A stretch of DNA of 64,000 bases from assembly GCA_029891385.1 (NCBI GenBank), contig CM057224.1, positions 34,663,005 through 34,727,004 on the forward strand, read 5' to 3'. The notes under the pieces were generated by a model that had not been told where the DNA came from, made no database searches, and worked only from the letters and a program-made list of their open reading frames with translations. Below, piece after piece: positions 10,549 through 61,949 of this stretch. The number at the start of each line of letters is the position of its first letter. The stretch's first letter is position 1. Origin of the DNA: Erythroxylum novogranatense (lineage: Eukaryota; Streptophyta; Magnoliopsida; Malpighiales; Erythroxylaceae). Both the position numbers and the translations under genes were made by a program.

Positions 10549-10615
10549 TAAGTTCATCAAATTTTCTTAAATTCATTCTCATTCTCACCAATTCTTTCTC
10601 CATTTAAATTCATTT

Positions 10616-24857: not shown

Positions 24858-25756
24858 TGAACCTCGAATTTTTTTCAATTATTGTTGATTTATTTGTTTT
24901 ATTATTTTTGAATTGAGTCATTAATTTGATGGGCATAAATAGAGATTTGAAATTAGATGGAAATATTTGAATTAAGTTAAAGTTAATATGGTGTTTAAGA
25001 AGATTAAAGGAGTTAGGAGGTAAATGAAAGAAGGGGAAAAATGGGAAGACCAAAGGAGAGGAGGGGTATTTTTGGAAGGACAAGACCAAAATGAGGTCTT
25101 ATTTAAGAAGAAGAAGAAAAACGTGAATTGGGACAGAAGAAGAGAAATAAGAAAGAGAAAGAAGAGAGATTTCGGTGGTTGAGAGAAATGAAGAGAAAAC
25201 AAGCTAGGGTTTCAATTTTTTTGGCCTTCAAGAGAGATTTTGAGTTTGTTCAAGAAGAGAAAAAGGTAGAGGAAGAGAAGAGCTTCCATTTGAGCCAAAG
25301 ATCTATTCATTTGGTGAAGAACCAAGGGGATCAAAGAGGCAAGAGGAACAAGAGAAGAGGCATTTTGAGCAAGTCTTTAAGGAAGAAAATCAAGGTGGGT
25401 GACATGTTTATAATAGAGTTATGGGCCATTAACGTTTTTACAAATCAAGAAAGTAAAATGATTTCAACTACTTCATAAATGTTGTTTTTAATTCTTTTGA
25501 GTGATTTGAGAAATTGCCACATGTTGATGTATGAATTTTGATTATAAAATGGAAAATGGTTTTGAAATATTCATGTTATGCCTTGAAACATGTCATGGCA
25601 TTTTGTATGAATGAAAAGATGTGAAAGCATGAAAGTATGAGCATATGAGAAAACAATTATGTGCTTTTTTTTGGGCGAGAGTGAAGCCATTTTGTTCATC
25701 ACGTGCACGTTGATAAGTGCCTTCTCCCGACTGCCCGCTTGTGACATATAAGCTCC
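24858..25756 (+). repeat. Gypsy LTR A, 5' part, lacking the first intron
   Basis: The LTR begins TGAACCTCG after the polypurine tract. A TTATTTAAG promoter-like box lies near 25100, then a purine-rich exon 1. At 25326|25327 the exon-1 end (GAACCAAG) runs straight into the exon-2 start (GGGATCAAAG), whereas LTR B has a 126-bp GTAAG...CAAG segment at the same point. Exon 2 ends at 25394 with donor CAAG|GTGGGT. The conserved 20-bp block is at 25719-25738 beside a CACGTG box. Homology stops near 25756, where the 18-bp array begins. Confidence 0.7.
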
Positions 25757-25768
25757 AAAAAGTGGACT

Positions 25769-26010
25769 CATTCGTCTGGTGAGGACGTATCGTCTGGAGA
25801 AGGCGTATCGTCTGGTGAGGATGCTTTGTCTGGTGAGGACGTATCATCTAGTGAGGCGCTTCGTCTGATGAGGACGTATCGTCTGGTGAGGGCGCTTCGT
25901 CTGATGAGGACGTATCGTCTGGTGAGGATGCTTCATCTGGTGAGGACGTATCGTCTAGTGAGGATGCTTCGTCTGGAGATGACGTATTGTCTGGTGACAT
26001 CATATCGTTT
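25769..26010. repeat. 18-bp tandem array (CGTCTGGTGAGGACGTAT-type)
   Basis: About 13 units of 18 bp. Alternate units end in GACGTA or GATGCT/GCGCT, giving a 36-bp higher-order period. The unit length is a multiple of three, so both strands show open frames of six-residue repeats; these are a by-product. Confidence 0.9.
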
Positions 26011-27025: not shown

Positions 27026-29134
27026 TGTAGGACCCCGAACCTTTCTATTAAATGAGAAATTGTTGGCGATTATTCATTTGTAGAAAAAAGGAAAATTTTT
27101 TAACTTGAAATGAAACAGAAAAGATGGATTAGACACAAGATGGGTTATATGTGATATGTTGGAAGTTAAAAGCTGAAAAATGTATATGTTCATTGAGTAT
27201 GCTTCGGTGTTCTAGCCCTAACTTTTGCTGTAGTTATCCAAATGAGATGATTCTTAATTTAGATTAAACTAGAGAGATAAGGCTACAAATTTTCTGATGA
27301 AATTGAGTTTTGGTTCAGTCTATAGGAATATCAATTTTTGAATGGAAGTTGAGAACATAATATTATTTCAGATATGAATAGTCCGAAAATGGTTGATGTA
27401 TAAATTTTAGACTATGGAACCAAATTGAATGTTTTTGATGTCATTAGAAAAGTGAGACAATGAAGAACATTTTTTTTTAAAGGAAGTGTTACCAAATTCC
27501 TTCAATTGCATCATTAGAATAAGGTCTTGATTTTTGGAAGGAGTTAAGCATGATTTGAAATAATTTTGAGGTTTTGCAAGATTAATTATTTTATTTGGAG
27601 TTAATTATTGTGTTAATGTTAGTTGGATTTTAAGATATGGTTTGGTTGAATTAAATAGCTAGAGTATTTATGTATGAAGACATTTTAGGAAGAACACTAA
27701 GCCATATAAGTTACAAGGCTTATATGTAAGGGCAAAGTGGTCATTGCTCACTCATTAATGGCATTATTGTAAATAGAAGTGTAGGTTGGCTTTTAAGGAA
27801 GGAGCATGCACGAAATTGTAAAGAAAAGAACCAAAGAAAAGAGAGAAGAGGGAGAGAGTCGGGGGAGAAGAGGAGAAAGAAGAAAGAAAATGCTATGTTT
27901 TGATTTTTCTTGGTTTTTAAGAGTGATTTTGATGTTTATTCATGAAGGAAAAAGGAAGAGGAGAATGAGAGCTTCCATTCAAGTCAATAAACTCCTCATT
28001 TGGTGAAGGATCAAGGTAAGAGTATGTTTGATTTGTTGGAATTTTAGAGATATTTTGGTTTCTAAGATCAATTTTGTAATTTTGGGTTATAGGTTTCTCA
28101 ATTAGAATGTCCATTGATTTGGGATTTTGCCATTGTTCAAGGAAATCAAAGAAGACAAGAAAAGGCAAGAGTAGAGGCTTTGGATAAGTATTAAGCAAGG
28201 AATTAAGGTGGGTTTCATGTTTATAATTTTAATAATGAGCCACTAATATGTTTTCAAAAATCAAGAAGATAAAATTATTTCAAATTCATTGTTTTTGAAA
28301 GCTTTGAGAAATTGCTACAATTGTTGCATTCATTGTTTTTTAATGATTCGAGAAATTGCTATGTGAATTTGGTTAACAAATTATGAAATGATGATGGAAA
28401 TGTGTTTGAAATATTACATGCTTATGAAAACTAAGTTTTTGAAATGTGCCTTTGGGCAATCCATTTTTAAGTTATGAAATGCATGTTATGTGGGTTTGGT
28501 TAGGTCCCTTAAATAAGTCAAGTACACTTGTCTAAAGGCTTCTCCCGCTTGCCCGCTAGTGACATGGAGCTCCTTCAAAGACTCCCCTAAGTTCACAGCT
28601 ATACAAGACCGCTATGTGGAAATATGTAGTGCGTTCTATTTTTGGACCAACCCAAACTATTATGATGTGTTATATGTTCATGGTATGTTGACAAGATTGA
28701 AGCATACATAGTTTGTTATTATGAATTTGGTTGAAAACTTTAAGAACCATGTGTTTTATGATTCGATAAGAATTTTTCTATGTCAATGATCTTTTTAAAT
28801 GGTTTTGTTTGTTATTTGTTATAAACTTGTTACCCACGAGCATTAAGCTCACCCCCCTTTCATCCCTATCTCCAAGTGATGAGAAAGAGATCGGATGAAA
28901 GAAAATCAAGGCATTTGTTTGATTATGCATATGTTGCATTTTAAGTTGGATATATGTAAAAATAAGAATTTAAACATATGTTAAGAATTATGAGATTTGG
29001 TACCTTTTGTTGTATTTTGGAATTTTGAGATTGATAATATAATTTGGGTTGGAAATGCCATTTATGTTTGTAAAATCCTTAATTTATGATGTAAATTAAA
29101 TATGAGTTTGTGTATGATGATGTGGGTTGAAATT

Positions 29135-29211
<77 letters not shown>

Positions 29212-29400
29212 TGAGAACCTATGGAAAGAAAGATAGAAATGTTATGAATGATGAGTTGTGGTTAAATATGAAGAGTAAAATAAATTGAAGATGATGATTT
29301 GATGAATTCCAATTGGTTGTTGAATTGATAAGAATGTGTTGCTTTAGTTAAGGAAGTGAAGTTGAGATGAATTTCAAGTTTTCACAGGGATAAGATTTGT
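27026..29400 (+). repeat. Gypsy LTR B
   Basis: The LTR starts TGTAGGACCCCGAACC. A GGCTTTTAAGG promoter-like box lies near 27789, then a purine-rich exon 1 ending GATCAAG|GTAAGAG at 28016. Candidate intron 1 is only 126 bp and T-rich, ending TTGTTCAAG. Exon 2 is 28142-28207 (66 nt) with donor TTAAG|GTGGGT. The intron-2 acceptor is at 28876 and the conserved block at 28537-28556. An AT microsatellite lies near the right side. The true 3' end is displaced or lost because solo LTR C is inserted at 29401. Confidence 0.7.
29136..29209. repeat. (AT)n microsatellite
   Basis: About 37 uninterrupted AT units within LTR B. Confidence 0.97.
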
Positions 29401-31700
29401 TGTTGGGCCCCAAATTTTTGTTTTCTTGAAGTTATTAAGTATGGATTTATATTGATTTATGATTTATGGTATAGTTTGAGTTTTATTGAAAGTATTAGTG
29501 GAAATTAGAATTATTGAATTTAGTAGGGAATAAGTGTTTATGAAAGAGTAGAAATGGTTGAGGGCAAAATGGACAAGCCACCAAAGGGTAAGAGGTTTTA
29601 GGCTTAACTTGAAGGGCATTTTAGTTATTGCTTTTTCTTGTAGGTTAAAGGAGTTAAAAGATAGAAAAGAAAAGAAGAAAAGAAAGGGAAAATAGAAAGA
29701 AGAGAAGAGAAGAGCATCGTCGGCGGCCGTGAGAGGAAAGAAGAAGAGAAGAAGAGGAAGTTAGTTCCAGGTGGTTTTCCGACAGATTTCAAGCTTCCTT
29801 AAGGTAAGTTATACTCTTCTACTCTTGTTTAGGTTGAATCTAAGCTTAGTATTGTTTGGTTTGAGTAGAAATCGATGGTTTAGGGTTTGGGGTGAACTTT
29901 GGTAGATTTGCTTGGATTTTGTGTTTATGTTGATGATTGTGAGTTAGAATGAGGTTAGAATGACAGAATATGACTTGATTCATGAGTTAGATGTGTTGTA
30001 GTTGAGAAATGGAAGGATTTAAGGTTTGAAAATGGCGGCGGTTCGAGACGAAGCTCACCGCACGCGTCGCGACGAGCTTGAAGCGCCGCCCTGTGACGTC
30101 AGAAGGCCGCACGTCGCGACGTGCGTTCGAATTTAGAATAAATCGCCGCGACGTGCATGCGTTTTAAGGGCGCGTGCACAAGCGTGCCGATCACTTCGTC
30201 AAGGCGAGCGCAGCTCTCGTCATGGCGAATAATTTTTCCAGCAAGTTGATTTTTAGTGTTTTGTTCATATCTTTTGGTACAGAAGTCCTTTTGGGGTGAT
30301 TTTAGAGGCGTAGTGAACTAGAGAAATAGATCTACAAGTGTTGTGAAGAGATGAATTGATGAATCAATTCCTAAGAATATGAAAATTGAGACGGAAGTTA
30401 GGAATGACATTATGGTTTCAGCATGAGTTTTTGAATAAGATTTTGGTTCTTATTTTAGGAGATCAAGAGAGGCAAGAGGATCAAGAGGCTCTAGAGGAAA
30501 CTCATTCCTAGGCAAGAACAAGCAAGGAAATCAGGTGGGTTCATGTTTATAATAAAGTAATTAAGTACTCATTGTTTAGTTCAAATCAAGCAAGATCTCA
30601 TGCATATACATTACATCATCCACGATCGCATTGCATACTATCATGAATGATTATATTCTGCATTGTGATTTGCATTCATGATTATTATCAAGATTTTCAC
30701 AAAGGAGTGTTCTCCTTTTACGAATACAAGTGCATGAAATCAAGTTTTACGAAACACATGACAAGTAAGATTACAAGCAAGTTTACAAGCAAGTGACATT
30801 TTGGCAACAAGTTTATAAGAACATGCTTATGTGGGTTTGTGGTGTCCCTCACGATAGTCAAGTGCACATTGACTCATGAAAAGGCTTCTCCCGCCTGCCC
30901 GACTGTGGCACTGGGTTTCCCACAAGGATTCCCCTCACGAAACTACGTCTACACATCAACATTTCGATGGCATGTGTAGTACGTCACGAACCCGGGACAC
31001 CCAAACCATCATTTTATGTGTTATGTGTTATGTGTTATTATGTGACATGCATCATGATTTATTCAAGAATCAAGCATTTTCAAGAAATGATACATGCACG
31101 TTCAATTGATATGATTTCAATAAGTATCACAACAATGAGATATTTTGAATAATTTTGCTTATTACTATATTATAGATATGTTCCCACGAGCTTTATAGCT
31201 CACCCCCTCTAATCTCCCCCATTCAGGTGACGAGCCAGAGATCGAGTAAATCACGAGTACGGTAGCACTTCAGTTTCTTTTGTTTATTTTCAATGTTATA
31301 TTGTTGAATGGCAAGACTTTGATTACATTTCAAGTATTATGGGTTCAAGAGTGTTTTGTATTTTTTGGCTCTTGAACTCATGGATTGTATTTGGGTTGTG
31401 ATATTCTAAAAGCTTTATGAAACTCATCTTTTGGAGCATGAATTATGGTTATGTTTGTTTTAAGAGCATGAAAGTTTCACGATGGGTCCGTTGAACTTCC
31501 GATGGGTTGAAAACTCATCTTTTGATTAATGAATTATGAATGTGTTGGTTTTCACTTCAATGAAAGCAAGTTTCAAGTTTGTTTTCCAGCAGGCCCATTA
31601 ACTTTTCGCGGGCTTTTCTTTTTCTTTTAAATGTATGAATCTCACGTTTTCCCGCCACGCTCTCATGTCAGACGTTGGGCTCCGGCAGCGGGGTCCAACA
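29401..31700 (+). mobile_element. Solo Tekay-type LTR C (2,300 bp), plus orientation
   Basis: TGTTGGGCCCC...GGTCCAACA with no internal region. The flanks TTTGT (29396-29400) and TTTTT (31701-31705) match at four of five bases, so a mutated duplication is likely. All candidate splice signals are strong: donor TTAAG|GTAAGT at 29804, acceptor TTATTTTAG opening exon 2 (30459-30534, 76 nt), donor TCAG|GTGGGT at 30535, and acceptor CCCCCATTCAG opening exon 3 at 31227. A GC-rich block (30040-30230) lies in candidate intron 1. The conserved block is at 30883-30902. Confidence 0.88.
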
Positions 31701-32703
31701 TTTTTTTTCTGACTTCCATGAAAGACCTTCATGAAAGTTGTAGCTCGTCCTTATAGCTTTCCAACGATGTATGATATTCCATTTTTGGGCAATGGAGTTG
31801 AAAGATATGATTTTTAGAAGTTATGTTACTATTTTAGGAGGTCATTAATTAGACAGCCACCTAGAGGTGGACTTTGACTCCTTTAGAGTCCAAATTGATT
31901 TTTAAGTCCTTCATGGAAGTTGTAGAGCTTCCTTTTAGCTTTCCATTGATATCAAATTTGTAAATTTTGGAGTTCTGGATCAAAATTTATGAATTGCGGA
32001 AGTTGGGATGTCGGAAAAAGAAAGACCAAGAGTTTCCAATTGATCATTATAGGATTAGTCGACTAATAGTCTTCGACCAGTCGACTAATCGTCTTGTTTT
32101 TACTTGTATTAGTCGACTAATAGTCTTCGACTAGTCAACTATTGTCATGTTTTTCCCCCTGACCTGACCTCTCTCCATTCTTTTACTTATAACTTTTCCG
32201 TCCGACCTCCGATTGACCTGATTTTTGAAGCATTGGATTCTTAAGACATTCATCTGCCTCTCCATAAAAAGCTATAATTTTTTAGATTGATTCAAAAAAG
32301 ATGAATTGAATCAAAGTGAGAGGATCGGTTGAAAAATTCTGAACATGCTTCCATATTGTGATGATATCTCGACCTATAGAGGTCTAAATGAGGTGATTCT
32401 TGGTTTTGAACAAGCTAGAGACATGGAATTATAACATATTTGAAGGAATCAATTCTCAATTTAGGACCCACTACTTTTAAATTTTCCAATCTGTTCGGAA
32501 GTAAGTGTTTTGGGTGCTTTTTGGGTGAGGTTTAGTTTGGTGTGGAATTTCCTCCCTTGTGGGATGCACGTATAGATGCCACATAGGACGTCGGGCTCGT
32601 GACTCACAGGCTCTAAAGAGGAATCAGTGATGTTTAAAGAATTTCCATAGTTTTAAGCTCACGTTAATGATCCGAAGTTGGGCTCCGCAAGCGGGGTACA
32701 ACA
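31701..32703 (+). repeat. Gypsy LTR fragment D with AGTCGACT-type repeats
   Basis: LTR-type sequence ending GGGCTCCGCAAGCGGGGTACAACA, like the end of LTR C. At about 32052-32145 the palindromic motif ATTAGTCGACTAATAGTCTT is repeated with variants. It is followed by ACTTATAACTTTTCCGTCCG, which also abuts the arrays near 9165 and 38630 (reverse complement). It may be the continuation of LTR B beyond solo LTR C. Confidence 0.6.
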
Positions 32704-36976: not shown

Positions 36977-37930
36977 TGTAACACTCCACTCCTACGTGAC
37001 CCGAACCCGATATCGTTGGTGATATCCGAGTCCATGCCCCGTGAGGGTGGCGTACTACATCAGTCGGTAAATCTCAGTAAAAATCCCTTTTTATTTTTTT
37101 TCTCAAACATTCATTCCATCAGAGCCATTTACCTTTTTTTTATTACACTCATGTGCGCTGAAAACAGTAGACAATTTGCATCCACGTGCATAGATAAACA
37201 TTTTCAGTTAATACAAATGGTCAACAATAAATTACAATAACCATTTCATGTACAAAACAGAACCACATTGGCCCATTACAAATACAAATAATCATTTTGG
37301 AATACAATTCTATTGGACACTAATGCAGACGCAAACTGATCCCGACCTTTATCCTTCACTTGCCTACAGTAGACATACTCCCGTGTCAAACGGGATATTC
37401 TTCAAGACCTAAAAAATAGATGCAAAATTTTGGTGAGTTTTTGCGAACTCAGTGAGGAACCATCATCGATGGTTAACCCAATTCATGCATATCGCAAGCA
37501 ATTCATAATTTCAGTCAAGTGTCCTTTCAGTATTAACATATAACAATTTACAGAACCCATGCAATTTCGTAAATCAGTTATCACATTTGTATGCAATGCA
37601 CATGTGACTCTTTTCCAGTTTAGTACAGTGTTGTGACCGAGCGCTTAACAGTGATCAGTATTCAGTAGACGCGTCTAGAGAGTATGAGAGCCCTCTGGGT
37701 ATGCACTAACTCCCCTTGAGCTCGAGCCTCGGTTCAGTAACAGTGAGTAACAGTGGCGACTCAGGTCACAACTATCATTATTACCAGTTTATGCATTGAT
37801 GTATGCTATGCATATGCCTAATTTAACGATCGAGATAAAGCATGATGCGCTTGATGAGGCGTCGAAATGCGATGACAGTGTAGCAAGCAATGGATCACAG
37901 ATAGCCATTGATCACCGTATAACCAAAGAG

Positions 37931-37980
37931 ATCACAATATATCACAATGGATCACAAGACATCACAATTGATCACAATGA
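37931..37980. repeat. Five exact-length 10-bp units, ATCACAATNN
   Basis: Five consecutive decamers: ATCACAATAT, ATCACAATGG, ATCACAAGAC, ATCACAATTG, ATCACAATGA. Further ATCAC copies lie just upstream (37894-37915). They fall in candidate intron 2 of the solo LTR. Confidence 0.9.
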
Positions 37981-38664
37981 TTAAGCGATAGCAGTGACAA
38001 TCAAATTATGTATCACAGTGTCACACAGTGGAAGTCAGTCAGTTCATAGAATCACAAACAGACATACTTCTATGTCAGATCTTCCAATTCATCGGACCCT
38101 CCGTCCGGAATCCAGAGGCAGTAAACAATCGCAATTCTGATCCCACCATTATTCTCCACAGAGTTATAAGTGCAGAATTATAAACACTTACTAATCGAGA
38201 AACCATCTAGGTTACTCACCTGTACTTCCAAGCTAATACCTGGAAGTCTCAGTGACATCGGTGGACCGACGCTCCAAATGTACCTCTAAAACAGTTACAG
38301 TATATAAACATTACCAACTACTCAATCAGAACTATTTAATAATGCACATGTAACAATTTGCAGGTGCACAATGCATGTTCATGATATTCCCGACCTTAAT
38401 CCAATATTTTTTCCATCAGAAAAATCCGTTTTTAAAAAATTAGAAATCCAATGGCGCTGACGGTGCTCAATTTGGATCCCTATAGGTCCTCAATTAAATA
38501 AAACAGTGGATAAAGAACCATTATCTGGACACCCATCAATTTCCCGTCCAAAAATTTCCAATTTCCCATGAAATGAAATTAAACCTTTCACGAATCCGAT
38601 GCCTCAAGAATCAGGTCAATCGGACGTCGGACAGACAAGTTATAAGCAAAAGAATGGAAAAAGG

Positions 38665-38760
38665 TCAGTACAAGTCAACTTATCTGAGAATACAAGTCGA
38701 CTTACTCTCATCACAGATGAATAAGTCGACTTCTTCAAGATCTGAAGTCGACTTACATTA
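38665..38760. repeat. AAGTCGACTTA-type palindromic array
   Basis: At least five AAGTCGACTT-like palindromes (some degenerate) spaced by 10-25 bp, flanked by TTATAAGCAAAAGAATGG. It occupies the place in candidate intron 1 where the related LTRs at 47601 and 54069 carry CGCCGCGACG units. Confidence 0.85.
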
Positions 38761-40906
38761 CTCCCATAACAGATCTGGAAAACTTTCTCCAACATGCCAA
38801 CTTCCACAGGGCATAATTCCTTACTCTGAACTCCAAATTAAGCAAACTTGGTGTCTATTTCATAGAGAAAAGAAAGATATACAATGTTCATGAAGGACAA
38901 AAAAGCCAATTTCACCTCTAAGGGTGTCAAAAATAAAATCAAAGTTACTTCCCATTCAATGAGTTCTAAAACAGTACAGTATCTTGTAAATTCAATAACT
39001 TCTCATTTCCTTTGTCAAAAATTACACAATAAATATGCTCAGAAATATGCCAATGTGATCTATAACTTTCATGAACAATATGAAATCAAATTCAATGGTT
39101 AACTGGGTCAAACAATTCAGTGAATGTTGGTGCCCCTGCAAGTACTCAATCTGAACAATAATGTTCTAAACAGTATATCTCCTTGCACAAATGTCAAATA
39201 AATGCATACTTTATACCTATGGAAAGATAAAACACAATGTTACACTTCCCATGAAGGGCTTCAAAACCAATTCCATCTCTAACTAGCTTAAAACGTTCAT
39301 GCAAGTTATTGATCAGGGAAGCAGTCAACAACCTCATGCAGGTACAGATTTTGAAAATTCATTACTCCCACATCTGATCTCCAACGATTACATGCTATAT
39401 ACCATTTTCAAGATCAATGTTTCCTCTACAACTCTTCAGAATATCACTCAAGCCAATTCAATTCACAAAAATTGCTAAAATTTCTTTCAAATCAGAATGC
39501 TCACAAAACTGACATTTCAGCTAGGTTTCACTAAAATGCATTTTACCAGCCAATAGTCATCAATGCATATCTCCCAATATACATATCGAAAAATTGAAAA
39601 ATCAGTGGAATTGGAAAGCTAACAATACAGGATTCAACTTTCATTTAGACCATTTTCCCTAATTCCTTCTCAAATAATTTAGAAAAATCATCAACACAAT
39701 CAGGTCATCAATCCGGATACTGTTCACATAAGTCCCAGTAGTAACTTTCCAAGCCAAATTTCAACCTCTTAATGCTAAAATAGACAACACCTATTTCACA
39801 CAAAATTGTAGCCAACAAACCAAAGTTTCATTTGGCACAAACCTCACCTCATTTGCATAACCACCCAAGTAGTTATGCTCAAATCAATGTACTAGGTCAA
39901 AAGTCAATTTTTCAGCTTTCATCCTCAACTTACATACTATCACTTCTAACACCAATTCCACATGCATAAGCATCCTAATAACACAAGAATTGAGCCAATA
40001 GGTCATCAAGACCTTCATGTCAATATATATACCTAAATTTCAGTACCTATTTTCAATCATTTTCTTATGAATTCATGCATTAAAACCATAAGTAAAACAT
40101 AAATCTTACCTAAAGCTTCCAACTCCACCTCTTTAAGCCTTTAATTTTCCAACTACCTTACTTCTTCTCCATCCCATGCATGGTTATCATTAAGATAAGA
40201 GGGTAGAAGGTGTAAGTTTGCAAGCTTGTAAGGAAGGCTCTCAAGGAGGAAGGAAGAAACTTAAAGAAGAAGAAGAAAAATCGATGGAGATGAAAGAAAT
40301 GAGGATTTTCGGATGGTGAAGTGAAATGAGCCATAACTCTTTCTTTTTTTCATCCCTTTAATGTGAACCACCAAAAGCACAAGGAGAGAAGAAGACAAAA
40401 GCATTTACTCACTTAGGACACTTGGCCAATTGAACTAAAAGGCAAAATAGAAATAAAACAAAATGATGGATAGGATTTAGAAATCCTACTAAAATTTGAC
40501 ACATTCTAGTCCAATGAGCCTAATTTCAATTCCAAAATAATATACCCAAAATGACAGTGCCATTGGGTAGCAATTTTTGCTACCGAAAATCAACTGGTTC
40601 ACCACTTGGCGATTTTTCCGGTCCGGGAATTTTCTCCGGAAAATTCCATAAAAATTTCTTAAAATATAAAACAGTCAATGGCTCACTCAGAATAAATTTT
40701 CAAACCCAATAGCTACGTTAATCACAATAAAATTGCCTTAGGCATAAAAACCGGGAATGTCATGTATGCAAGTACCGAACTTTGCATGTGCACAATTTCA
40801 CTGTGTACCAATACGAGTATGCATGAACAATACTAATTAATCCCTATCAATCTCATCCTATGACAATTTACTATTTTATCCTTCCTGTCAGGGGTGGGAT
40901 GTTACA

Positions 40907-46841: not shown

Positions 46842-46846
46842 CTGCC
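46842..46846. repeat. Target site duplication CTGCC, left copy
   Basis: CTGCC precedes TGTAACATCCCG; the same bases follow GGTGCTACA at 56306-56310. Confidence 0.95.
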
Positions 46847-47864
46847 TGTAACATCCCGTTACCGGAGTGACGGGTATGTCAGTAATTTGGATCGGGTTAG
46901 AATTGGGTACAGGCAAATGTGACATTGTGCATGCATTATTGTTTTATAGATATCGGTAATGATTATTATTCGCACAAGTATATATATATATGTACATACA
47001 TGTATGACAATTCCCGAATTGATTGTGTATCGAAAATTGGTTATAATTGGTCCGATGAGAATTGGCTTAATTGTGCAATTGGGAATTTATCAAAATTGTA
47101 CATATGAGAATTGGTTTGTGAAAATTGGATATTTAGTAAGTGTATAATTGGTTTTGAATATGAAATTGGAATGAAATGGATTATAGAAAGGGAATTGGAA
47201 ATTGAGTATAGGAATGAGCATTTCCTAATTTTGTGAATTTATGAGAATTTTTCCGGAATTTTTAGAGTTTTGGATCCGAACTGGAAAATTTGGCTAAGGG
47301 ACTGATTAATGTGATTCCGGGTCCGAGATTGATTGACAAATAATATGAAATAAATTGAATTATGATTTTGGGAATTTTTGGTTATGAGTAGCGCGAAATT
47401 GTGGGAGTAAAATAGAATAAGAATCGGACGTGTTAGACCCTAAGAATTGGACATGAAGTGGAGAATCTCATATATATATATGTATAAGCTTAAGGTAAGC
47501 TTATTTCTTCATTTCTCTTCGCCTTCATCGACGGTCGTGGGTGAGCATCTTGCGATTTGGAGGTTTTGGAAGATTTTCGAAGGTTGCTAGCTTGAATCAA
47601 GTAAGTTTCTATGTGTTTATGCCTTAAATCGTTTCATTTGATCATTGATTTGAGTAATAAATTGGTTAGAAATTTGGAAAGTTGCGATGATAGGGTTTTC
47701 GTTGGTTTTGATTTGGGTTTTTGATAAAAGATGAGTTAAATGATGATTTAAGGTTAGAAATAAGTTGGGTTTAATGTTTAAAAGTGATTGAGGGTGTTTA
47801 GAATGGATTTGGATGAATTAGAATCAGAAAATCTGGGAATTTCTGGGTTTCGGATGCGAAACTG

Positions 47865-48105
47865 GGTTCGCACACCGCGACGTGTGATGAACACGCCGCG
47901 GCGAGATACCCCCAGTCTGCACACCGCGAGGTGGGCGATGCTCACCGCGGCGAGTGAAATCCTTCTGCACGCCGCGACAAGCAAGGACGCACGCCGCGGC
48001 GAGCAGACGAAGTCACGCCGCGGAGAGAAGGTCGCACGCACGCCGCGTCATGACGAGGTGTTCTCGCCGTGGCGAGCGATCTCACGCCGCGACGAGGACA
48101 CTAAT
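47865..48105. repeat. GC-rich block of degenerate CGCCGCGACG units
   Basis: About 12 degenerate copies of CACGCCGCGRCGAGC-like units in otherwise AT-rich LTR. CpG density is far above the surroundings. The copy in the other LTR is at 54335-54565. Confidence 0.88.
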
Positions 48106-49040
48106 GAAGGCCGATGGTAATTCTTTTAATTGGAGAAATTTGAGTTCAACTTTGAATTGGTTCGATTAATGGTAATTTTGAGGATTAATCTCTTATGAGT
48201 TTGGCTATTGGATCAATTGAATTTCTGAGACTAGAAATTGCAATTCCGAAGAAATGAAATCAGATGATTATGAGGTGATTGTTACAAGTAATGGGTTTGA
48301 GGTTTTGATTTCAAATGAATTGATTCCTTAATGATTAATCGAAAAATTTGAGACTAAGAATATTGAATAAATGAGATGGAAATTCGGAATTTGAATTTGA
48401 AGATTATCGGAATTGTAATTGAGTGACAAGGAATAGTGATTGTGATTTTAATTGGAGTGTGACTTTAGAGAATCTGGATCGTAGTCAATTGAATTTAGAT
48501 ATTTGGAATTGTTATGATTTAGAGTGAAAGTTATTAATTGAGAAAATTCGGGAATAGGATCGGAATTATCATAACATGTATTGTACGCAATCTATTCGAT
48601 TTATGTGCATGTTTTGATCATTGAATTGGTGCAATGAGTGATATTCGATTATTCTGATTATTTTAGAGGCACCGATGGAGCCATTCTACGGGCATTGCTG
48701 AGACTTCCAGGCTGTAGCTCGGAAGTGCAGGTGAGTAACCTAGTTGGTTTCTCAACCTATATGTGTTTAATTTACTGTACAGATGCCATGTGGACTAAGG
48801 ATGGATAGATGTGTGATTGATTTGATTGATTTCGGACCATGGGTGTTCGAAATATTTGATTGTGATATTGAAGTGCAAAGATGAGTAAATATGTATGAAT
48901 GCATGAATGAATTAAATTGTAAATGCATTAGCGAAAATGATTGGAACTGTAAATGACTAAAATTGGGAAGTGACACATGCATTCATGCATCACTGAATGA
49001 TCAGATAATGGTAGTTGTGACCGGTGGTACTAACGTATGC

Positions 49041-49216
49041 GAGCCACAGAGCTCAATGCATTTGCTGCGCCATCCTTTGGGCTTATCGAGGCGAATAACG
49101 CCCAACGTATATGAGAGCTTTAAGCTCAACGCACAGGACCTCAGGTCCAACGATTGATAGAGCCTCAGGCTCACCGCAGGGCATATCATGCCCAACGATT
49201 TCAGAGCCATTGGCTC
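49041..49216. repeat. Array of seven short hairpins, left LTR
   Basis: Successive inverted repeats with 4-6-bp stems: 49041-49054, GGCG/CGCC 49090-49102, GAGCTT/AAGCTC 49115-49127, GGACC/GGTCC 49136-49148, GAGCC/GGCTC 49160-49172, GGGCAT/ATGCCC 49179-49193, GAGCC/GGCTC 49204-49216. Most are followed by CAACG. The stem sequence differs from one to the next while pairing is kept. Confidence 0.88.
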
Positions 49217-49851
49217 AACGTAAATGATTGCAGGCGCACGGTCACAACAACGAAAAGAAAATTGAAAGTGTCTCATGGGCATTGCATATGTATATGACTG
49301 ACTGAAAATGTAAATTGACTATGAATGACTGTGAAATGTGAATAAGGAAATTGCATGTGATATTACTGTAAGTGCTACTGTGTGTTATGTGTATATGATT
49401 ATGAATGCATGAGTTGGGTGAACCATCGATGATGGTTTCTCACTGAGTTCGCAAACTCACCCAACATTGCATCTATTTTTCAGAAGTGAAGAGTACCCGT
49501 TAGACACACGGAGTATGTCTCTTGCTAGCAAGGCGTGTATCGGGTCGGGATCGGTGCCATCACATCGCATTAGAGTAGTGAATTGTTTGATGGGCCCTTT
49601 TGATTTATGTGTACTTGTATGGTATAACTGAAATTGGTTTATAATTGAAATTGTTTTGTAATTGCAAATGTTTTGTTATAATTGGGCCAAATCATTATTG
49701 TTTTCATGACTCAACTGTTTTAAGAAAAGAAAATGTCATATCGAGTTTTAAAAGTAGTATCGTTCTAATACGCCACCATCGCGAGTCACGGGCTCGGATA
49801 TCACCGTCGATATCGGGTTCGGGTCTCGTCGGGGGTGGGGTGCTACATTTG

Positions 49852-49864
49852 TGGTATCAGAGCC
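49852..49864 (+). other. Primer binding site (tRNA-iMet) of LARD-like element
   Basis: TGGTATCAGAGCC four bases after the LTR end at 49847. Confidence 0.95.
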
Positions 49865-52800
49865 AGGTTGTACAATCTTACATGGGCGTTCTGAGAAAAT
49901 GTATCAAAGTGCATGCATATAAGTCATGTCTCGGCAGACAGTGATGACTGATCCCCAGTATAGCATATGAGTCTCATACATGAGCCTGTACTAGTGATTT
50001 AAGTGGTTAGAAATAGTGAGGAAAAGATGATATGGGAAAATGTGATAAATGAAAATTGTAAAAATCAAAGAAAAAGAATAAGTATACGGTGCGATATGAT
50101 GATTGGAGATTTAGTGTATTGGTATTGATAGGCGTATTATGAAATATGACATTAGAGTGATATTGGAACAATCTGTGAACGTGAAATAGATGTGAATATG
50201 TATAGAGGAAATATAGAGATATATGAGAAATGGCAAGATTGAAAGTATATAAGTAAAGTAAATGGAAATAAAATGTTTTGTGATTAGAGTTGCGCAGCGA
50301 AAGCGTGACGAGAGTTGTGATTGTTTTGATATGGATTTAAGTGTGACTGCGTGAAACGAAACTATGAAAAGATCGAAAGGTAAGAAAATGGTATTGATAG
50401 ATGAAAAAGCTGAACAGTTGTTAAGGTCAGTGGATTTGTCTATGCGAATGCACACTTGATAATGGAAATGATATCAGAAATCAATTGGTGTGTTAGTGGA
50501 TAACCGCCAAGTCTTATAGTTAAAAATTCATGTGAGTTAGAGTAAGAAATGAAAGTGCTTATAGTGATTGAATTGGGAATGAATTGAGATTGTAATTAGG
50601 ATATTGGTATGGTAAAATCCTCATGATCGAGGATAGGTGCAAAAAGGAAAAACGTGGTCAAAACTTTAATGAGATTGAGGTATCCTAAGCATAAGTGACT
50701 AATTGGTATATTGATGTAATAATTTTAAATGGTATGTACCCCAATGAACGGTATTAAAAAGGATGCTCTGGTTATGTGGATTATGGCATAGATTGATCTT
50801 CACGAGATAGCGTGAATAGTTGAAATTGATTTCCTAAGGTATTGAGAATAATCGATAAGAAATATGACCACTGTTGATGATTAGGAATTGAAAGAAGAAT
50901 TTCCCTGAATTGGATTTCGATTGGATGATGAGAATTGAAAAGTTTAGCAATGAAAGGACAAATTGGAGATAAATGTTAAATGAATGAAAATTCGTTATTG
51001 GGAGTGTAAAAGATAGAATAAGTTATTAAGAAGGTATGTGTTACGATAATGTAAAGACTTCGATTGTGTAATAGGATTATTGAACAGTAAAAAGATATTA
51101 GTTTTGATTTGAGGAGAATAACGATGCTGGTATATTTTGTGTGAATATTGTAAAGGATAAAGTGGAATTGATAATAGTATTATTAACCCAGTTTGACATG
51201 ATAGTGAATAAATCGCAATATGTGGAGAATCTAGTGTAAAGGAACGTGTGTCGAAATACATTTGATGAAATTGAGTAAGTTATGAGAAAATTGTTCCTCA
51301 TTGGAGATGTATGATATGTAAAAGTTATGCAAATTGATCATAGGTGTAAGGAGTTCATTATATTATTGAAGAGTGAAATGTAGATTGAGTTTAAAGTGGA
51401 TAGTGACTCGATCATCGATGATCGATAGAATACATTTGAATAGTGAAGAAAATAAATTGGCATAGTTGAGGAAATTGTATAGTATGCAAGTTTTATAAGA
51501 GTGAATTTGATCTTGATTGAATAAGTAATGGATGAATTATTATTTGAACATGGTATTGGGAGATTAAAATGTAAATAGAGGTATTGATAAATGTGAAATT
51601 GTAAAGGACAGTGCGTAAGGAATTTGAGTTATTTTTCCAATATACAATCAATCCTAAAATGTGTGGAGTGTATGATTGTATCTTGGATATGTCCGAAATT
51701 GTTAAATGTTTTCGATCTTAGTCCACGATGATAATGTTTGAGGAAAAATGTGTGAATTGTATGACTAATGATTGTAAAAAGAGACACTTGGAGAAATTTT
51801 CAATTCGAGTATTGATCGTGTTATTTTAAATTTTGAGGTGTTATAATAGGAAATGAATCGTAAAGATTATAATGCGATCTATTGAAATAGAGTAAAGAGA
51901 TTCTATGTGTATGGAGATCAGTATAATCTGATGGGCAGTATTGGTATTTGATAACTTGATAATTTTAGTGTATTAGAAAGTGTTGTAAAGTTTGGAGATT
52001 CTATTCGTACAGAAATTGTTTTGGATGTATATACGTTTATAAGGCAATAATGATTAAGTTATATGAGTGAATGGAAAAATGACTATGCATTTGAGTGTTT
52101 CAGAATTTCGTTATTGAAACAAGTAGTGAGGCGATAAGATTATGATACCTAATGTAAGAATGAGTGTAAACTGTCGAGTTAGTAAAGCGCAAAAAGAACG
52201 TATTAGCGATTGGAATTCCAAGTCAAATGTGCAGGTGTGTATTGAAAGCATGGCCAAAATCCGAATTGAGAATCTTGAATAGTGGACCGTATTGAGAAAT
52301 TGTGAATAGTTTAGCTATAAAGAAAATGAGTAATGTGAATGGATTAAGAAGTATGAGTAAAATTCATTAAGGGAATCGTTAGTGAAAAAAAAAATCAAGG
52401 AATAATAATAAGAGGGTATTAGAAGAGTAATAGGAAGTAGAGTGTGACATTGAGTGTAGGTCTGACCTACAGGACTGATTGCTGATGTTAAATGTGAAAC
52501 TAATATGTTCTTTGGAATCCATAGGGTTATGAGATTGATGTATGGATCAGAGTGATTGTAAAAATATAGATTGTTAAATTGGTGATAACAAAATTCAAAT
52601 TGATGAGAATGAATCAGATCGATGATTATCGAGATTATTGAAACTTTACGAGATTAGTAATTGGCATTGGAGAGATGCAATATGATAAGTGATACATGAT
52701 ATATTTCTAAATGTGTCACCTCGGCCAATCTATGTATTGATTGATATCATAGGAAAAAGGGAAATTAAATTCGTTATTAGTGGCCTTGATGTGACCGTGT

Positions 52801-53294
52801 TGTGAATCGATTTATGGATTGGCAAGTCAGTAAAATCCTAAAAGATGAAATGGGTTCGTAAAGTACTATATAGACAGAAATAGGAAATATTGATATGATC
52901 GGATATGTATATTATTGGTGGTGGATATAAAGAATTATGAGTAATCGAAAAGAAATCGTTAAAATAGTATAAAGTTTGAGAAAGGAAAAAGAGGTAAGTA
53001 AGTGATTGTAGTGTGATTAAATTTGGCAAGTTCGTCTAAAATCCTAAAAGATGATTCGGATCCAAAGTGTTACAAAGACTGAATTAGAAAATATTGTTAG
53101 GATCCGAAACATGTGTTATCAATATTGGAAGTGATGAATTGTGAGTAAAAGGCAATGTAGAGTTAAGAAAGATTTGGCAGAAATTATGCGTATGCGTATA
53201 GGGAAATAAGTGGAAATCAGAGAATCAATGATTGTAAAGACTCCCCTATCATCTTGACAAATCGTACATGAAATTTCGAGGACGAAATTTTTAT
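49865..53294 (+). pseudogene. Non-coding internal region of the LARD-like element with RNase H relic
   Basis: No frame longer than about 115 codons on either strand and none resembling a known protein. At about 51960-52070 the DNA shows faint RNase H-type similarity (TTGTAAAGTTTGGAGATTCT and GAAATTGTTTTGGATGTATATAC), paralleling the clearer relic at 23540-23800. The two internal regions align in patches from end to end, so the non-coding internal sequence was already present in an older copy. Confidence 0.72.
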
Positions 53295-53308
53295 AAGGAG
53301 GGGAGAAT
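53295..53308 (+). other. Polypurine tract of LARD-like element
   Basis: AAGGAGGGGAGAAT directly before the 3' LTR at 53309, preceded by the GAGGACGAAATTT sequence shared with the coding Tekay elements. Confidence 0.92.
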
Positions 53309-56305
53309 TGTAACATCCCGTTACCGGAGTGACGGGTATGTCAGTAATTTGGATCGGGTTAGAATTGGGTACAGGCAAATGTGACATTGTGCATGCATTA
53401 TTGTTTTTATAGATATCGGTAACAGATTATTGACTGCACAAGTATATATATATATGTACATACATGTATGACAATTCCCGAATTGATTGTGTATCGGAAA
53501 TTGGTTATAATTGGTCCGATGAGAATTGGCTTAATTGTGCAATTGGGAATTTATCAAAATTGTACATATGAGAATTGGTTTGTGAAAATTGGATATTTAG
53601 TAAGTGTATAATTGGTTTTTGAATATGAAATTGGAATGAAATGGATTATAGAGAAAGGGGAATTGGAAATTGAGTATAGGAATGAGCATTTCCTAATTTT
53701 GTGAATTTATGAGAATTTTTCTGGAATTTTTAGAGTTTTGGATCCGGACCGGAAAATTTGGCTAAGGGACTGATTAATGTGATTCCGGGTCCGAGATTGA
53801 TTGACAAATAATATGAAATAAATTGAATTATGATTTTGGGAATTTTTGGTTATGAGTAGCGCGAAATTGTGGGAGTAAAATAGAATAAGAATCGGACGTG
53901 TTAGACCCTAAGAATTGGACATGAAGTGGAGAATCTCAGATATATATATGTATAAGCTTAAGGTAAGCTTATTTCTTCATTTCTCTTCGCCTTCATCGAC
54001 GGTCGTGGGTGAGCATCTTGCGATTTGGAGTTTTTGGAAGATTTTCGAAGGTTGCTAGCTTGAATCAAGTAAGTTTCTATGTGTTTATGCCTTAAATCGT
54101 TTCATTTGATCATTGATTTGAGTAAGAAATTGGTTAGAAATTTGGAAAGTTGCGATGATAGGGTTTTCGTTGGTTTTGATTTGGGTTTTTGATAAAAGAT
54201 GAGTTAAATGATGATCTGAGGTTAGAAATAAGTTGGGTTTAATGTTTAAAAGTGATTGAGGGTGTTTAGAATGGATTTGGATGAATTAGAATCAGAAAAT
54301 CTGGGAATTTCTGGGTTTCGGATGCGAAACTGGGTTCGCACGTCGCGACGTGTGATGAACACGCCGCGGCGAGATACCCCCAGTCTGCACACCGCGAGGT
54401 GGGCGATGCTCACCGCGGCGAGTGAAATCCTTCCGCACGCCGCGACAAGCAAGGACGCACGCCGCGGCGAGCAGACGAAGTCACGCCGCGGGGAGAAGGT
54501 CACACGCACGCCGCGTCATGGCGAGGTGGTCTCCCCGTGGCGAGCGATCTCACGCCGCGGCGAGGACACTAATGAAGGCCGATGGTAATTCTTTTAATTG
54601 GAGAAATTTGAGTTCAACTTTGAATTGGTTCGATTAATGGTAATTTTGAGGATTAATCTCTTATGAGTTTGGCTATTGGATCAATTGAATTTCTGAGACT
54701 AGAAATTGCAATTCCGAAGAAATGAAATCAGATGATTATGAGGTGATTGTTACAAGTAATGGGTTTGAGGTTTTGATTTCAAATGAATTGATTCCTTAAT
54801 GATTAATCGAAAAATTTGAGACTAAGAATATTGAATAAATGAGATGGAAATTCGGAATTTGAATTTGAAGATTATCGGAATTGTAATTGAGTGACAAGGA
54901 ATAGTGATTGTGATTTTAATTGGAGTGTGACTTTAGAGAATCTGGATCGTAGTCAATTGAATTTAGATATTTGGAATTGTTATGATTTAGAGTGAAAGTT
55001 ATTAATTGAGAAAATTCGGAATAGGATCGAATTGTCATAACATGTATTGTACGTAATCTATTCGATTTATGTGCATGTTTTGATCATTGAATTGGTGCAA
55101 TGAGTGATATTCGATTATTCTGATTATTTTAGAGGCACCGATGGAGCCATTCTACGGGCATTGCTGAGACTTCCAGGCTGTAGCTCGGAAGTGCAGGTGA
55201 GTAACCTAGTTGGTTTCTCAACCTATATGTGTTTAATTTACTGTACAGATGCCATGTGGAGTAAGGATGGATAGATGTGTGATTGATTTGATTGATTTCG
55301 GACCATGGGTGTTCGAAATATTTGATTGTGATATTGAAGTGCAAAGATGAGTAAATATGTATGAATGCATGAATGAATTAAATTGTAAATGCATTAGCGA
55401 AAATGATTGGAACTGTAAATGACTGAAATTGGGAAGTGACACATACATTCATGCATCACTGAATGATCATATAATGGTAGTTGTGACCGGTGGTACCAAC
55501 GTATGCAGAGCCACAGGCTCAATGCATCGCGTGCCGATCCTTCGGGCTTATCGAGGCGAATAACGCCTAACGATATGAGAGCTTTAAGCTCAACGCCTTG
55601 CGGACCTCGGGTCCAACGATTGATAGAGCCTCGGGCTCACCGCAGGCATATCATGCCCAACGATTTCAGCCATTGGCTCAGCGTAAATGATTGCAAAGCA
55701 TCGGTCACAACAACAACGAAACGAAAATTGAAAGTGTCTCATGGGCATTGCATATGTATATGATTGAAAATGTAAATTGACCGTGAAATGTGAATAAGGA
55801 AATTGCATGTGATATTACTTGTAAGTGCTACTGTGTGTTATGTGTATATGATTGTGAATGCATGAGTTGGGTGAACCATCGATGATGGTTTCTCACCGAG
55901 TTCGCAAACTCACCCAACATTGCATCTATTTTTCAGAAGTGAAGAGTACCCGTTAGACACACGGAGTATGTCTACCGCCAGCAAGCGTAGTATCGGTCGG
56001 GATCGGTGTAGTCACATCTGCATTAGAGTAGTGAATTGTTTCAGTGGGCCCCTTTTAATTTATGTGTACTTGTATGGTATAACTGAAATTGGTTTATAAT
56101 TGAAATTGTTTTGTAATTGCAAATGTTTTGTTATAATTGGGCCAAATCATTATTGTTTTCATGACTCAACTATTTTAAGAAAAGAAAAATGTCATATCGA
56201 GTTTTAAAAAGTAGTGACTGTTCTAGTACACCACCATCGCGAGTCACGGGCTCGGATATCACCGTCGATATCGGGTTCGGGTCTCGTCGGGGGTGGGGTG
56301 CTACA
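53309..56305 (+). repeat. 3' LTR of the LARD-like element
   Basis: Matches the 5' LTR along its length. Equivalent candidate splice signals: donor at 54069, exon 2 at 55133-55196 (64 nt), donor at 55197, exon 3 from 55937. The hairpin array is at 55508-55678 with changed loops (TCG for TCA) but intact stems, and the first hairpin here has a full 5-bp GAGCC/GGCTC stem. Confidence 0.92.
55508..55678. repeat. Array of seven short hairpins, right LTR
   Basis: Stems at 55508-55520, 55555-55567, 55579-55591, 55602-55614, 55626-55638, 55645-55657 and 55668-55678. Same order and spacing as in the left LTR. Confidence 0.88.
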
Positions 56306-56310
56306 CTGCC
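56306..56310. repeat. Target site duplication CTGCC, right copy
   Basis: Partner of 46842-46846; the LINE resumes after it. Confidence 0.95.
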
Positions 56311-59746: not shown

Positions 59747-61949
59747 TGTTGGGCCCGGGTCCCGGATCCCTATTCCCGAAGTGGCCCCTCGTGTTGCGCC
59801 AGCGACGGGCTCCCAAACATATCGGACCTGATCCCAACATCCATACATAATTCGATTCGCACATGCATTTACATAACATTCACACAACCATTCTAACTAT
59901 GAATTAAACATCCCATAAACCAAGGGGCTTCATGCCATTACAATCCAAAGGAAATTCAACAAGTATTCTCAAAATAGCATAATACAAAATAACGTTTAAA
60001 TCCCAAAATACATGAATATGCTCCATGATGATATGCTTGGCGGGCTAACCAAAAATACTAACTTAATACAAAGCTCCTAACTAACTTGAAGTTTCTGATG
60101 CCTTGCAAGATCAGCGATAGTCTCGTTCTGCACCTGAGGAGGGGAGATAATGGGGTGAGCTGCGAAGCTCAGTGGCATATATATTTATAGCCATTGGCAA
60201 CGAGCGACACATTCAAGCATATACATATATATGTACAAGTATAGCAAGTCAACACTTAGCAATTGATTCACATTCATTAAACCATCAAGAGAATATGTCA
60301 TGCGATTCCTACTTCACAACATAACAATTATTATGCATCATTTCTAACAAATCAATCATGCAATGCACAACAAATGGCTTGAGAGTTCCGAAAAATTATC
60401 CGGATAAACCGAAGTTTATATCGTAAACAAAACGAGTCTGATTTCTCAAGGATCTCGTGGCCTCAAGCGGGCAGCCGGGAGAAGGCTATACGTCAACGTG
60501 CACGTGACTATCCATCTGTTACTCTCTCACCCAAACAAAGCACATAACAATTCGTTTCATGCTCAAAGCATTTTATCAAAGCTTTCATACTTTTCATTCT
60601 TTTCATTCTTACACAATGCCATAACGCCTATCAAGGCAGAACATAATCATAATCACCATGCATTTCCAATATTTCTTCTCATTCAACACAAACAATGTCA
60701 CACACATGCAAGCATGCATACATATATTGCCTATACACACAATAACCATAAACATATTACCCACCTAATATTGCTCGAGAATCCAACTCACTGTGGTCCT
60801 TCCTCTTGCGATTGGATCAGGTCGGCTTGGTTTCCTATAATAAACCAAGTTCCCATTCAATTAACATTCAAAAAAAATATTCAAGAAGCTCGAAAAGTAA
60901 AAGCACTAGCGTTAAAAGTCTACATTCGACTTCCATTTAAATTCCCGAACCCTTAGAGGCTAATTCCGAACTTCCTTTTTTCATACAACTTGTATCCCTC
61001 ATTCTCTAGATCACAACGAATCCAAAATCACCTCAATTGGACATCTACACCAAAAGATGTGCCCAAAAGACTAAGATTCATCGCTGTTGAAAACAGGGGC
61101 TCGCCGAGGCGAAGCCCCGCTCGTCATGGCGAACGCCAGCGCTCACCGCGGCGTGCACCATCTTCTCGCACATCGCGACGTGCTCCTCACGCTCGTCGCA
61201 ACATTGCCCTTCTCACACGTCACGGCGAACCTAAAATTTGCACGTCGCGACAAACTCGCACGTCGCGGCGTGTTCATACGCACGTTGCGACGTGCGGGCC
61301 TGAAGAACGAGTCTGAACCTGATTTTCCAGCATTTTCACACTTTAATCCTTCCCCAAACACAAATGTAACACACTTAAACCTTGATTCAAGTCTCATGCT
61401 ACATTTCTAACCCAATCAAACCTTAAAAACCGTCACAAACTCATCAACCCAAGGATTTTCCCCTAATTTTTCCCAAAAAACCCTAAACCACCGATTCTAA
61501 TTCATACAAATCGATTCTAGAGTTTAATCTAACTAAAACAAGATGAAAAGAAGCTAACTTACCCGGAATGAGCTTCAAATCTGTCGGAAATCACAAAGAT
61601 CACAAACTCTCTTTTTCTTCTCCTTCCGCCTCACCCACGACACTTCCCTCTTCTCTTCTCCTCTTCTTTTTCTTTTTCCTTCTTTTCTCCTATAAGTCAC
61701 TTATATCTAAAGGAGATGGGTAAAGACCATTTTACCCCCTCCTTCAAAGCCTTAACTTAATCCAACCTAAACAATCTTCCCAAAATACCCTTATACACTC
61801 TTACCCTTTAATTCCTATTTAAATCACATTAAACTCAAATAAATCTCAATTATCCCCTAACACTCTCAATTTCTTCAAACTAAGGCATAATCACATAATT
61901 AACACAATTCAGGCTTAATGACATCATAAAAAAAATTCGGGGTCCAACA
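59747..61949 (-). repeat. 3' LTR of Tekay element 2 (2,203 bp)
   Basis: TGTTGGGCCCGGG...GGTCCAACA, adjoining a polypurine tract on the right, so this is the downstream LTR of a minus-strand element; the other LTR is outside the window. Candidate splice signals on the minus strand: donor CCGG|GTAAGT at 61562, acceptor TTATTATAG opening exon 2 (60834-60765, 70 nt), donor TTAG|GTGGGT at 60764, and acceptor CCCTCCTCAG opening exon 3 at 60133. A GC-rich block of CACGTCGCGACG units (61090-61310) is in candidate intron 1. The conserved block is at 60467-60486 with CACGTG beside it. Confidence 0.93.

Follow-up and report, generated by a model that had tools for sequence, protein, structure and literature searches.

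We analyzed a 64,000-nucleotide stretch of the genome of Erythroxylum novogranatense (GenBank assembly GCA_029891385.1, contig CM057224.1, positions 34,663,005 to 34,727,004; hereinafter, the window), in which the long terminal repeats (LTRs) of gypsy retrotransposons, delimited by self-comparison and reading, appear to be small transcription units with spliceosomal introns: the mRNA produced from an upstream promoter would be spliced, and the replicating RNA would keep the second of the two introns. We assign this reading a probability of roughly 70%. Its best supported part is that intron 1 appears to be removed from RNA at the predicted GT and AG and that such RNA appears to have been reverse-transcribed and inserted repeatedly; exact intron 1 junctions were read in two families, D and C, and a native junction in a third, F. 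The predicted organization is exemplified by LTR D, which belongs to an element that extends beyond the window edge:

59747-61949, minus strand: LTR D, the 3' LTR of a gypsy element; ends TGTTGG...CCAACA; pol frame upstream
61563-61672, minus strand: last 110 nt of exon 1 of D, a purine-rich leader preceding donor 1
60835-61562, minus strand: predicted intron 1 of D, 728 nt, GTAAGT...TATAG; exactly absent in five genome copies (L049-L053), present in D and 27 aligned D-type copies
60765-60834, minus strand: predicted exon 2 of D, 70 nt, the LTR segment with the highest conservation (0.971)
60134-60764, minus strand: predicted intron 2 of D, 631 nt, GTGGGT...CAG; conserved sites, with a repeat containing TATAAA and, close to the end, a GAGCT-AGCTC hairpin
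59747-60133, minus strand: predicted exon 3 of D to the LTR end, as read from the sequence

The LTR is rewritten from RNA at each transposition, and therefore an LTR intron should vanish once spliced RNA is copied; if intron 1 is spliced and the RNA is reverse-transcribed, exact exon 1/exon 2 copies must exist. The genome searched was the assembly from which the window comes (1.3 Gb, 267 contigs; a single genome), and the best 40 places of each search were scored, so that all counts are lower bounds; furthermore, junction probes rank intron-less copies first, and the counts obtained with them do not estimate frequency. A probe consisting of 70 nt of each of the three exons of D yielded 4095 candidates, and in 5 of the best 40 places the match runs through from exon 1 to exon 2, with 81-88% identity. 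All five junctions (L049-L053) are exact, with ...CTG or ...CGG (in one case, ...TGG) joined to GAAACC and a play of one or two bases, the shared Gs. All five of these copies retain donor 2 along with the beginning of intron 2, and four have an LTR-start motif upstream.

The second family is represented in the window by the two LTRs of a single insertion, with the target-site duplication (TSD) CTGCC at 46842-46846 and 56306-56310:

46847-49847, plus strand: LTR C1, the 5' LTR of an element that lacks long reading frames, followed by the primer-binding site (PBS) TGGTATCAGAGCC
47601-48666, plus strand: predicted intron 1 of C1, 1066 nt, absent in 19 of the best 40 genome places
48667-48730, plus strand: predicted exon 2 of C1, with AG before and GTGAGT after
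48731-49483, plus strand: predicted intron 2 of C1, with the splice signals GTGAGT...TTTTTCAG
53309-56305, plus strand: LTR C2, the partner of C1 (96% identity), with exon 2 at 55133-55196

The C1 three-exon probe, built in the same way as the D probe (4098 candidates, best 40 scored), runs through exon 1/exon 2 in these 19 places, and there is one additional partial case. Six of the seven C-type junctions that were read are exact (GAATCAA/AGG) and one is 2 nt short; because the ends share no bases when compared with C1, the breakpoints are fixed to the base at GT and AG. Altogether, 11 of the 12 D-type and C-type junctions read represent exact GT-AG losses, as in the spliced integrated retrotransposed elements (SpIREs) of human L1. 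Four pairs of C-type intron-less places are located 5.2-5.5 kb apart on the same strand, in the manner of LTR pairs. Both members of the pair on genome contig C2 (L055 and L056) were read and both lack intron 1, and their spacing, 5403, is within 3 bp of the value obtained for the window element (6466 - 1066 = 5400); at most one member of each of the remaining three pairs was read. That neither LTR has intron 1 is consistent with its loss prior to insertion, and the contig C2 pair points to removal of intron 1 in RNA.

The third family includes an LTR that was initially listed among those with a three-exon organization, and LTR G, with which it is grouped:

24856-25760 (start approximate), plus strand: head part of LTR F; exon 1/exon 2 junction 25326/25327, exon 2 25327-25394, intron 1 absent
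27500-29375 (approximate ends), plus strand: LTR G; intron 1 28016-28141 (126 nt), exon 2 28142-28207, intron 2 28208-28876

LTR F contradicts the three-exon layout: it has neither donor 1 nor intron 1, and exon 1 is contiguous with exon 2. Alignment of F with G shows that F misses the 126-nt intron 1 of G, up to the CAAG common to both ends. A probe of 241 nt of native F sequence across the junction (4624 first-look candidates, best 40 scored) is contiguous in all 40 places, namely F itself at 100% and 39 others at 86-95%, with no large gap; F is an amplified lineage without intron 1. Some survey copies are less exact: in two F-type ones (L038:5001-10000 and L039:1-400, minus strand), which lack the usual intron 1, exon 1 is separated from exon 2 by about 70 nt of different sequence, and the loss of intron 1 in L039 (plus strand, 2940-3330), read by eye, is only probable, the automatic alignment having placed the gap elsewhere. 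The approximately 70-nt segment has CAG at two places and is possibly another exon or an insertion.

In trees built from exon 2 and intron 2 (32 D-type rows and 11 F/G-type rows), three changes of the intron state are needed in the D-type tree and in the F/G-type tree, at least two of them forced by well-supported branches, and therefore losses of intron 1 probably recurred; three of the four intron-less rows in the F/G-type tree are the inexact or by-eye cases. Exact intron losses are a stronger test than column conservation, and on the strength of these genomic junctions intron 1 is almost certainly a real intron.

The splice signals themselves were checked in all LTRs of the window, which, in addition to those given above, are the following:

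29401-31700, plus strand: LTR E; intron 1 29804-30458, exon 2 30459-30534, intron 2 30535-31226
36977-40906, minus strand: LTR H (end set at 36985 or 36970 in computations); intron 1 40109-38286, exon 2 38285-38220, intron 2 38219-37409
15206-17130, minus strand: LTR B, a solo LTR with TSD CCATC; intron 1 16743-16268, exon 2 16267-16199, donor 2 at 16198, acceptor 2 mutated
13762-14898, minus strand: head of LTR A; intron 1 14515-13847, exon 2 13846-13776, donor 2 at 13775
5179-6305, minus strand: tail of LTR A past a nested insertion (end set at 5330 in computations); acceptor 2 at 5667, with the PBS TGGTATCAGAGCC adjoining the end

The nine exon 2 intervals of the initial annotation are all correct, each with AG directly upstream and GTGGGT or GTGAGT directly downstream, and the junctions proposed there for D (61563/60834 and 60765/60133) and E (29803/30459 and 30534/31227) were recovered. 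The statement that the ordered signals occur in at least eight LTRs stands with amendments: all four are canonical in seven of the nine LTRs (A, C1, C2, D, E, G and H) but not in F or in B, where acceptor 2 is CGG instead of CAG. The nine intervals are not as many independent cases, either, given that 48667 and 55133 belong to one insertion; the seven LTRs with the complete set of signals correspond to six of eight insertions. Scoring of the LTR stretches (905-3922 nt) with approximate dicot matrices placed the predicted sites mostly near the top: donor 1 ranks 1-5 within the LTR in all eight copies scored, donor 2 ranks 1-8 in all nine, acceptor 1 ranks 1-9 in seven of nine, and acceptor 2 ranks 1-11 in six of seven. 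The low-ranking exceptions are acceptor 1 of H (37th) and F (23rd) and acceptor 2 of G (84th); all these ranks are flattering because the sites were initially picked by eye. In the seven LTRs compared, the T content is 11-25% in exon 2 vs 29-46% in the introns.

Conservation of the splice sites was assessed among genome copies. A search with the exon 2 region of D gave 3241 first-look candidates; 28 of the best 40, which were scored and included D, were aligned with MAFFT, that is, D and 27 others (L001 was dropped as D itself). Intron 1 is present in 28 of 28 aligned copies, a set biased to intron-bearing copies because the query contained the last part of intron 1. The AG of acceptor 1 and the GT of donor 2 are kept in all 28 copies, and the AG of acceptor 2 in 19 of the 21 rows that have bases at that position. 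Donor 1 slips by one base in the raw alignment columns (TA in 20 rows and GT in 8); read within the aligned block, it is GT in 27 and GTAAG in 24 of the 28 copies, flanked on either side by varying bases and indels, and for comparison, GTAAG occurs anywhere in a shuffled 60-mer in 6% of trials (seven window copies). The expectation that GT and AG are more conserved than their flanks is borne out by donor 1, which stands amid variable sequence, but not by acceptor 2, where column conservation alone is about average. The mean conservation in D-type copies is 0.971 in exon 2, 0.934 in intron 2, 0.886 in intron 1 without repeats and 0.749 in exon 1.

We further surveyed 200 kb beside the window (L029-L048) and found 18 additional exon 2 blocks; four other matches (two in L029, L039 +1025 and L048 +6081) were discarded as false and resemble the start of the nested insertion in LTR A. 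The group alignments comprised 25 rows, that is, 8 window LTRs and 17 survey blocks, with C2 and one block split by a fetch boundary omitted. Among the D types, AG precedes exon 2 in 10 of 10 rows as read (L041 minus being aligned one base off) and GTGGGT follows it in 9 of 10, with ATGGGT in L046. The C/H types have TAG/AGG in 7 of 7 rows and GTGAGT in 6 of 7 (GTGATT in L042), and the F/G/E types are looser, with GTGGGT in 6 of 8 and ATGGGT in L041 plus and L038. Most C/H-type exons 2 (48667-48730, 38285-38220, L030 and L035) also contain an ACTTCC...GGAAGT stem, with variants, directly before donor 2. When fifteen diverged copies are aligned at donor 1, information exceeds 1 bit only at positions -1 to +5, that is, at the plant 5' splice site, in a set where the sites were chosen by motif. 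In diverged copies, the conservation of 5' and 3' sites expected of spliceosomal introns is seen at both ends of intron 1 and at the donor of intron 2, and acceptor 2, the weakest of the four splice sites, shows this more weakly. Exon 1 and exon 2 were both located in 21 LTRs, 9 of them in the window and 12 in the survey; intron 1 is present in 8 and 9 of these, respectively (17 in total), and therefore the RNA that is copied into DNA is apparently mostly unspliced at intron 1.

The case for the second intron is of a different kind: of the two proposed LTR introns, the first is supported by natural losses; the sites of the second are conserved, but copies that had naturally lost it were not found in the searches made. 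Exon 2/exon 3 joins number 0 in the best 40 places each of the D probe, the C probe and a dedicated D exon 2/exon 3 probe, and all 13 survey copies with both blocks retain 430-756 nt between them. One apparent junction, C8:11260881, where the match runs 17 nt past exon 2, was rejected, as the corresponding sequence (L054) keeps donor 2 and what follows it; at a C-type place, C5:36558399, the match stops 7 nt beyond exon 2. Intron 2 is either unspliced in the replicating RNA or lethal when lost. We think it quite probable that intron 2 is spliced.

The end of intron 2 contains additional conserved features. A hairpin sequence with CACC after it stands just before acceptor 2; it reads GAGCT-AGCTC in A, D, E and numerous survey copies and, with one compensated pair, GAGTT-AACTC in the C/H types. 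G has a shorter form of the hairpin and B a broken one, and certain survey copies have it in irregular form. In D types, CTATAAAT is located upstream of the hairpin, within a GGCTA...-like repeat, and TATAWA is present in intron 2 in 21 of the 23 D-type rows with letters. A and G likewise have TATAAA, at -56 to -55 relative to acceptor 2, E has TATATT at -60 and B has TATAAT at -52. In D types, a core promoter may be in the same place as acceptor 2. The possibility that acceptor 2 is a pyrimidine-rich coincidence is weakened by its rank of 1 in C1, C2 and H, and still applies to the D types.

The persistence of introns in diverged LTR families suggests a separation of the spliced RNA from the replicating RNA. 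From these sequence comparisons, the existence of separate spliced and unspliced RNAs can be soundly inferred, and we somewhat favor two distinct RNA pools. A promoter upstream of exon 1 would give rise to an RNA that is spliced as exon 1-2-3 and, in coding families, used for translation. The replicating RNA would retain intron 2, either starting inside it or depending on a signal that intron 2 carries. A start inside intron 2 is a tentative proposal to which we give somewhat less than even odds. The start site, marked by a TATA box about 55 nt and a hairpin about 20-40 nt ahead of acceptor 2, would coincide with the U3/R border; U3 would then include exon 1, intron 1 and exon 2, with the 3' LTR portion of the RNA as its template, and from this portion intron 1 would sometimes be spliced out, producing intron-less daughters. 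Under this scheme, intron 2 could not be lost because its removal would take the start of R. The complete scenario, in which the replication start is nested in the second intron of the LTR, so that the spliced mRNA is never replicated, the replicating RNA is never spliced at its 5' part, and intron 1 records spliced 3' ends, is speculative, and we would not be surprised to see it fail. Intron 2 splicing, both promoters and the role in gag mRNA are what we infer from sequence features.

Several observations weigh against the proposed scheme. The column conservation of acceptor 2 is about average, with 45% of dinucleotides scoring equally well, and even the perfect score of acceptor 1 and donor 2 is matched by 16% of dinucleotides. 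TATAWA was not found upstream of exon 1 in any of the 28 D-type rows, some of which have TATAAG, so that the upstream promoter is unproven, and C1 and H have no TATA at the intron 2 place. In the D-type tree, the intron-less L053 and its neighbor B are on long branches, with unsure placement. The amplification of the F lineage without intron 1 implies that intron 1 is dispensable. With the best 40 places scored per search, poorly matching intron 2-less copies could be missed. Finally, the initially suggested benefit, an efficiently translated gag mRNA, finds no direct support: exon 3 is ATG-rich (37.5 ATG per kb, compared to 10.6 in exon 1 and 7.3 in exon 2; six LTRs), which is ill suited to an efficient leader, and the C element has the same architecture without a frame longer than 120 amino acids between its LTRs, so that in this element gag mRNA is unlikely to be the reason for the architecture.

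The main rival explanation is a single upstream promoter, as in retroviruses, with genomic RNA that starts at exon 1 and remains unspliced, introns that carry the packaging signal, and losses of intron 1 that represent packaging leaks from the 5' leader. This model, which we consider unlikely, accounts for the retained introns and is in line with the preservation of the hairpin before acceptor 2 in seven of the eight window LTRs holding that stretch and in most of 20 survey blocks; however, the hairpin is not always formed in minimum-energy folds. Moreover, full splicing should often remove both introns, which is the case in none of the scored places (best 40 for each of the D and C probes), and the model requires an R region that is much longer than 1 kb and has an intron at either end, in addition to facing the same lack of upstream TATAWA in D-type rows. 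The introns could also serve expression rather than RNA sorting, by boosting transcription or as a shield from silencing, a role compatible with either promoter model. In intron-mediated enhancement, a promoter-proximal intron raises transcription, and intron 1 is located directly behind the upstream leader, where enhancing introns act; donor 1 is kept, too, while the sequence and length of intron 1 vary freely. Still, the F lineage without intron 1 has at least 40 copies and C has many, and in the titles and opening parts of abstracts covered by the literature search, intron-mediated enhancement was not linked to LTR introns. We regard an expression role as rather improbable.

The chances are poorer that the splice sites are incidental, as in human L1, with splicing being a harmful by-product and the sites persisting through overlap with needed signals. 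The L1 SpIREs, according to the accessible portion of the report (PMC5860796), arise in this way, with splice sites possibly embedded in needed sequence, and the loss of intron 1 is recurrent here; but donor 1 fits the plant consensus in families with widely different surroundings (the sites being motif-chosen), which is hard to reconcile with overlap with one other signal, and the intron-less lineages were amplified. It is highly improbable that there is no splicing at all, the signals occurring by chance and the intron-less copies being microhomology-driven DNA deletions. Short shared bases at the ends in D (GG) and F/G (CAAG) could assist such deletions, and the probes, being built on the predicted junction, favor exact joins. 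The ends in C1, however, share no bases, yet six of the seven junctions are exact; in the pair that was read, both LTRs are intron-less, with three further pairs of places being similar; and identical ends recur in several lineages.

The elements that carry these LTRs are of several kinds. Element A encodes domains in the Ty3/gypsy order (Retrotrans_gag, RVP_2, RVT_1, RT_RNaseH, Integrase_H2C2 and rve, the last below the cut-off), and element D ends in an integrase, with a weak match to Chromo (PF00385; 21.5 bits, cut-off 25.1); from sequence features, these elements may be Ty3/gypsy chromoviruses of the Tekay/Del type. LTR A is split by the nested insertion at about 6306-13760, which contains several internal direct and inverted repeats, and solo LTR B is located in an apparent protease frame of another gypsy element, as read by eye. 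Element C (46847-56305) has 3-kb LTRs, an intact TSD and a 3.5-kb internal region, and the frame listing includes no frame longer than 120 amino acids wholly between C1 and C2; it is a fairly recent, probably non-autonomous element with intron-bearing LTRs, grouped with the others only by the likeness of its LTRs. No plant relatives were found in IMG/VR, and no tRNA genes were found by ARAGORN. Intron 1, which ranges from 126 nt to 1.8 kb across families, contains in several of them stretches of short degenerate repeats that are variable and in many cases palindromic (61100-61330, minus strand; 47870-48100; 30040-30220; 25771-26000; 32040-32160; 38670-38760, minus strand). These repeats resemble CGCCGCGACGTGCG in A, B, C, D and E, AGTCGACT in H and at 32 kb, and CGTCTGGTGAGGACG behind F, and D-type matches frequently break within such stretches.

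Intron-less copies make it possible to look for leaks between RNA pools in the genome sequence alone, and the division of RNA between translation and replication, a long-standing question, becomes testable in any assembled plant genome. A nested start, if true, would be an RNA-sorting device built into the geometry of the LTR and common to coding and non-coding families. In addition, a solo LTR may amount to a promoter already equipped with splice sites.

In the literature searched, mostly outside subscription papers, we found no report of introns located wholly inside gypsy LTRs. In the leaders of human T-cell leukemia virus type 1 (HTLV-1) and foamy viruses, a splice donor is located in the R region of the LTR, and the acceptor is in the body of the genome, outside the LTR. 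Plant LTR elements are described, in the passages available from a 2025 review (PMC12786077), as generally intron-free, with Ogre and EVADE as exceptions; the functional introns of these elements yield separate RNAs, as proposed here, and the same passages do not state a location in the LTR. Direct RNA sequencing in sunflower, as far as the accessible text goes, detected spliced isoforms of LTR elements with truncated Gag (PMC7730604), and in a paper on plant centromeric retrotransposons, a term search returned neither 'intron' nor 'splic' (PMC3059260). Penelope-like elements, in the part of the article consulted (PMC3846280), are retroelements that retain introns, as in the present case; unlike the elements described here, they are not LTR retrotransposons, and their intron retention is tied to their own mode of replication. 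A precedent for two RNA pools, by analogy, is BARE of barley, for which the sections available (PMC3735527) describe two TATA boxes in the LTR and separate RNA pools, one replicated and the other capped and spliced for translation; BARE differs in being a copia element with an intron in the coding region rather than in the LTR. The closest precedent for the genomic footprint are the human L1 SpIREs, which in the available excerpt (PMC5860796) are likewise exact GT-AG losses in a non-coding 5' region, found with a junction probe; the most frequent of these makes up about 1.8% of the full-length L1 insertions, and its promoter is weakened. L1 has no LTR, whereas the sites reported here are in the LTR itself, and the lineages that lack the intron were amplified.

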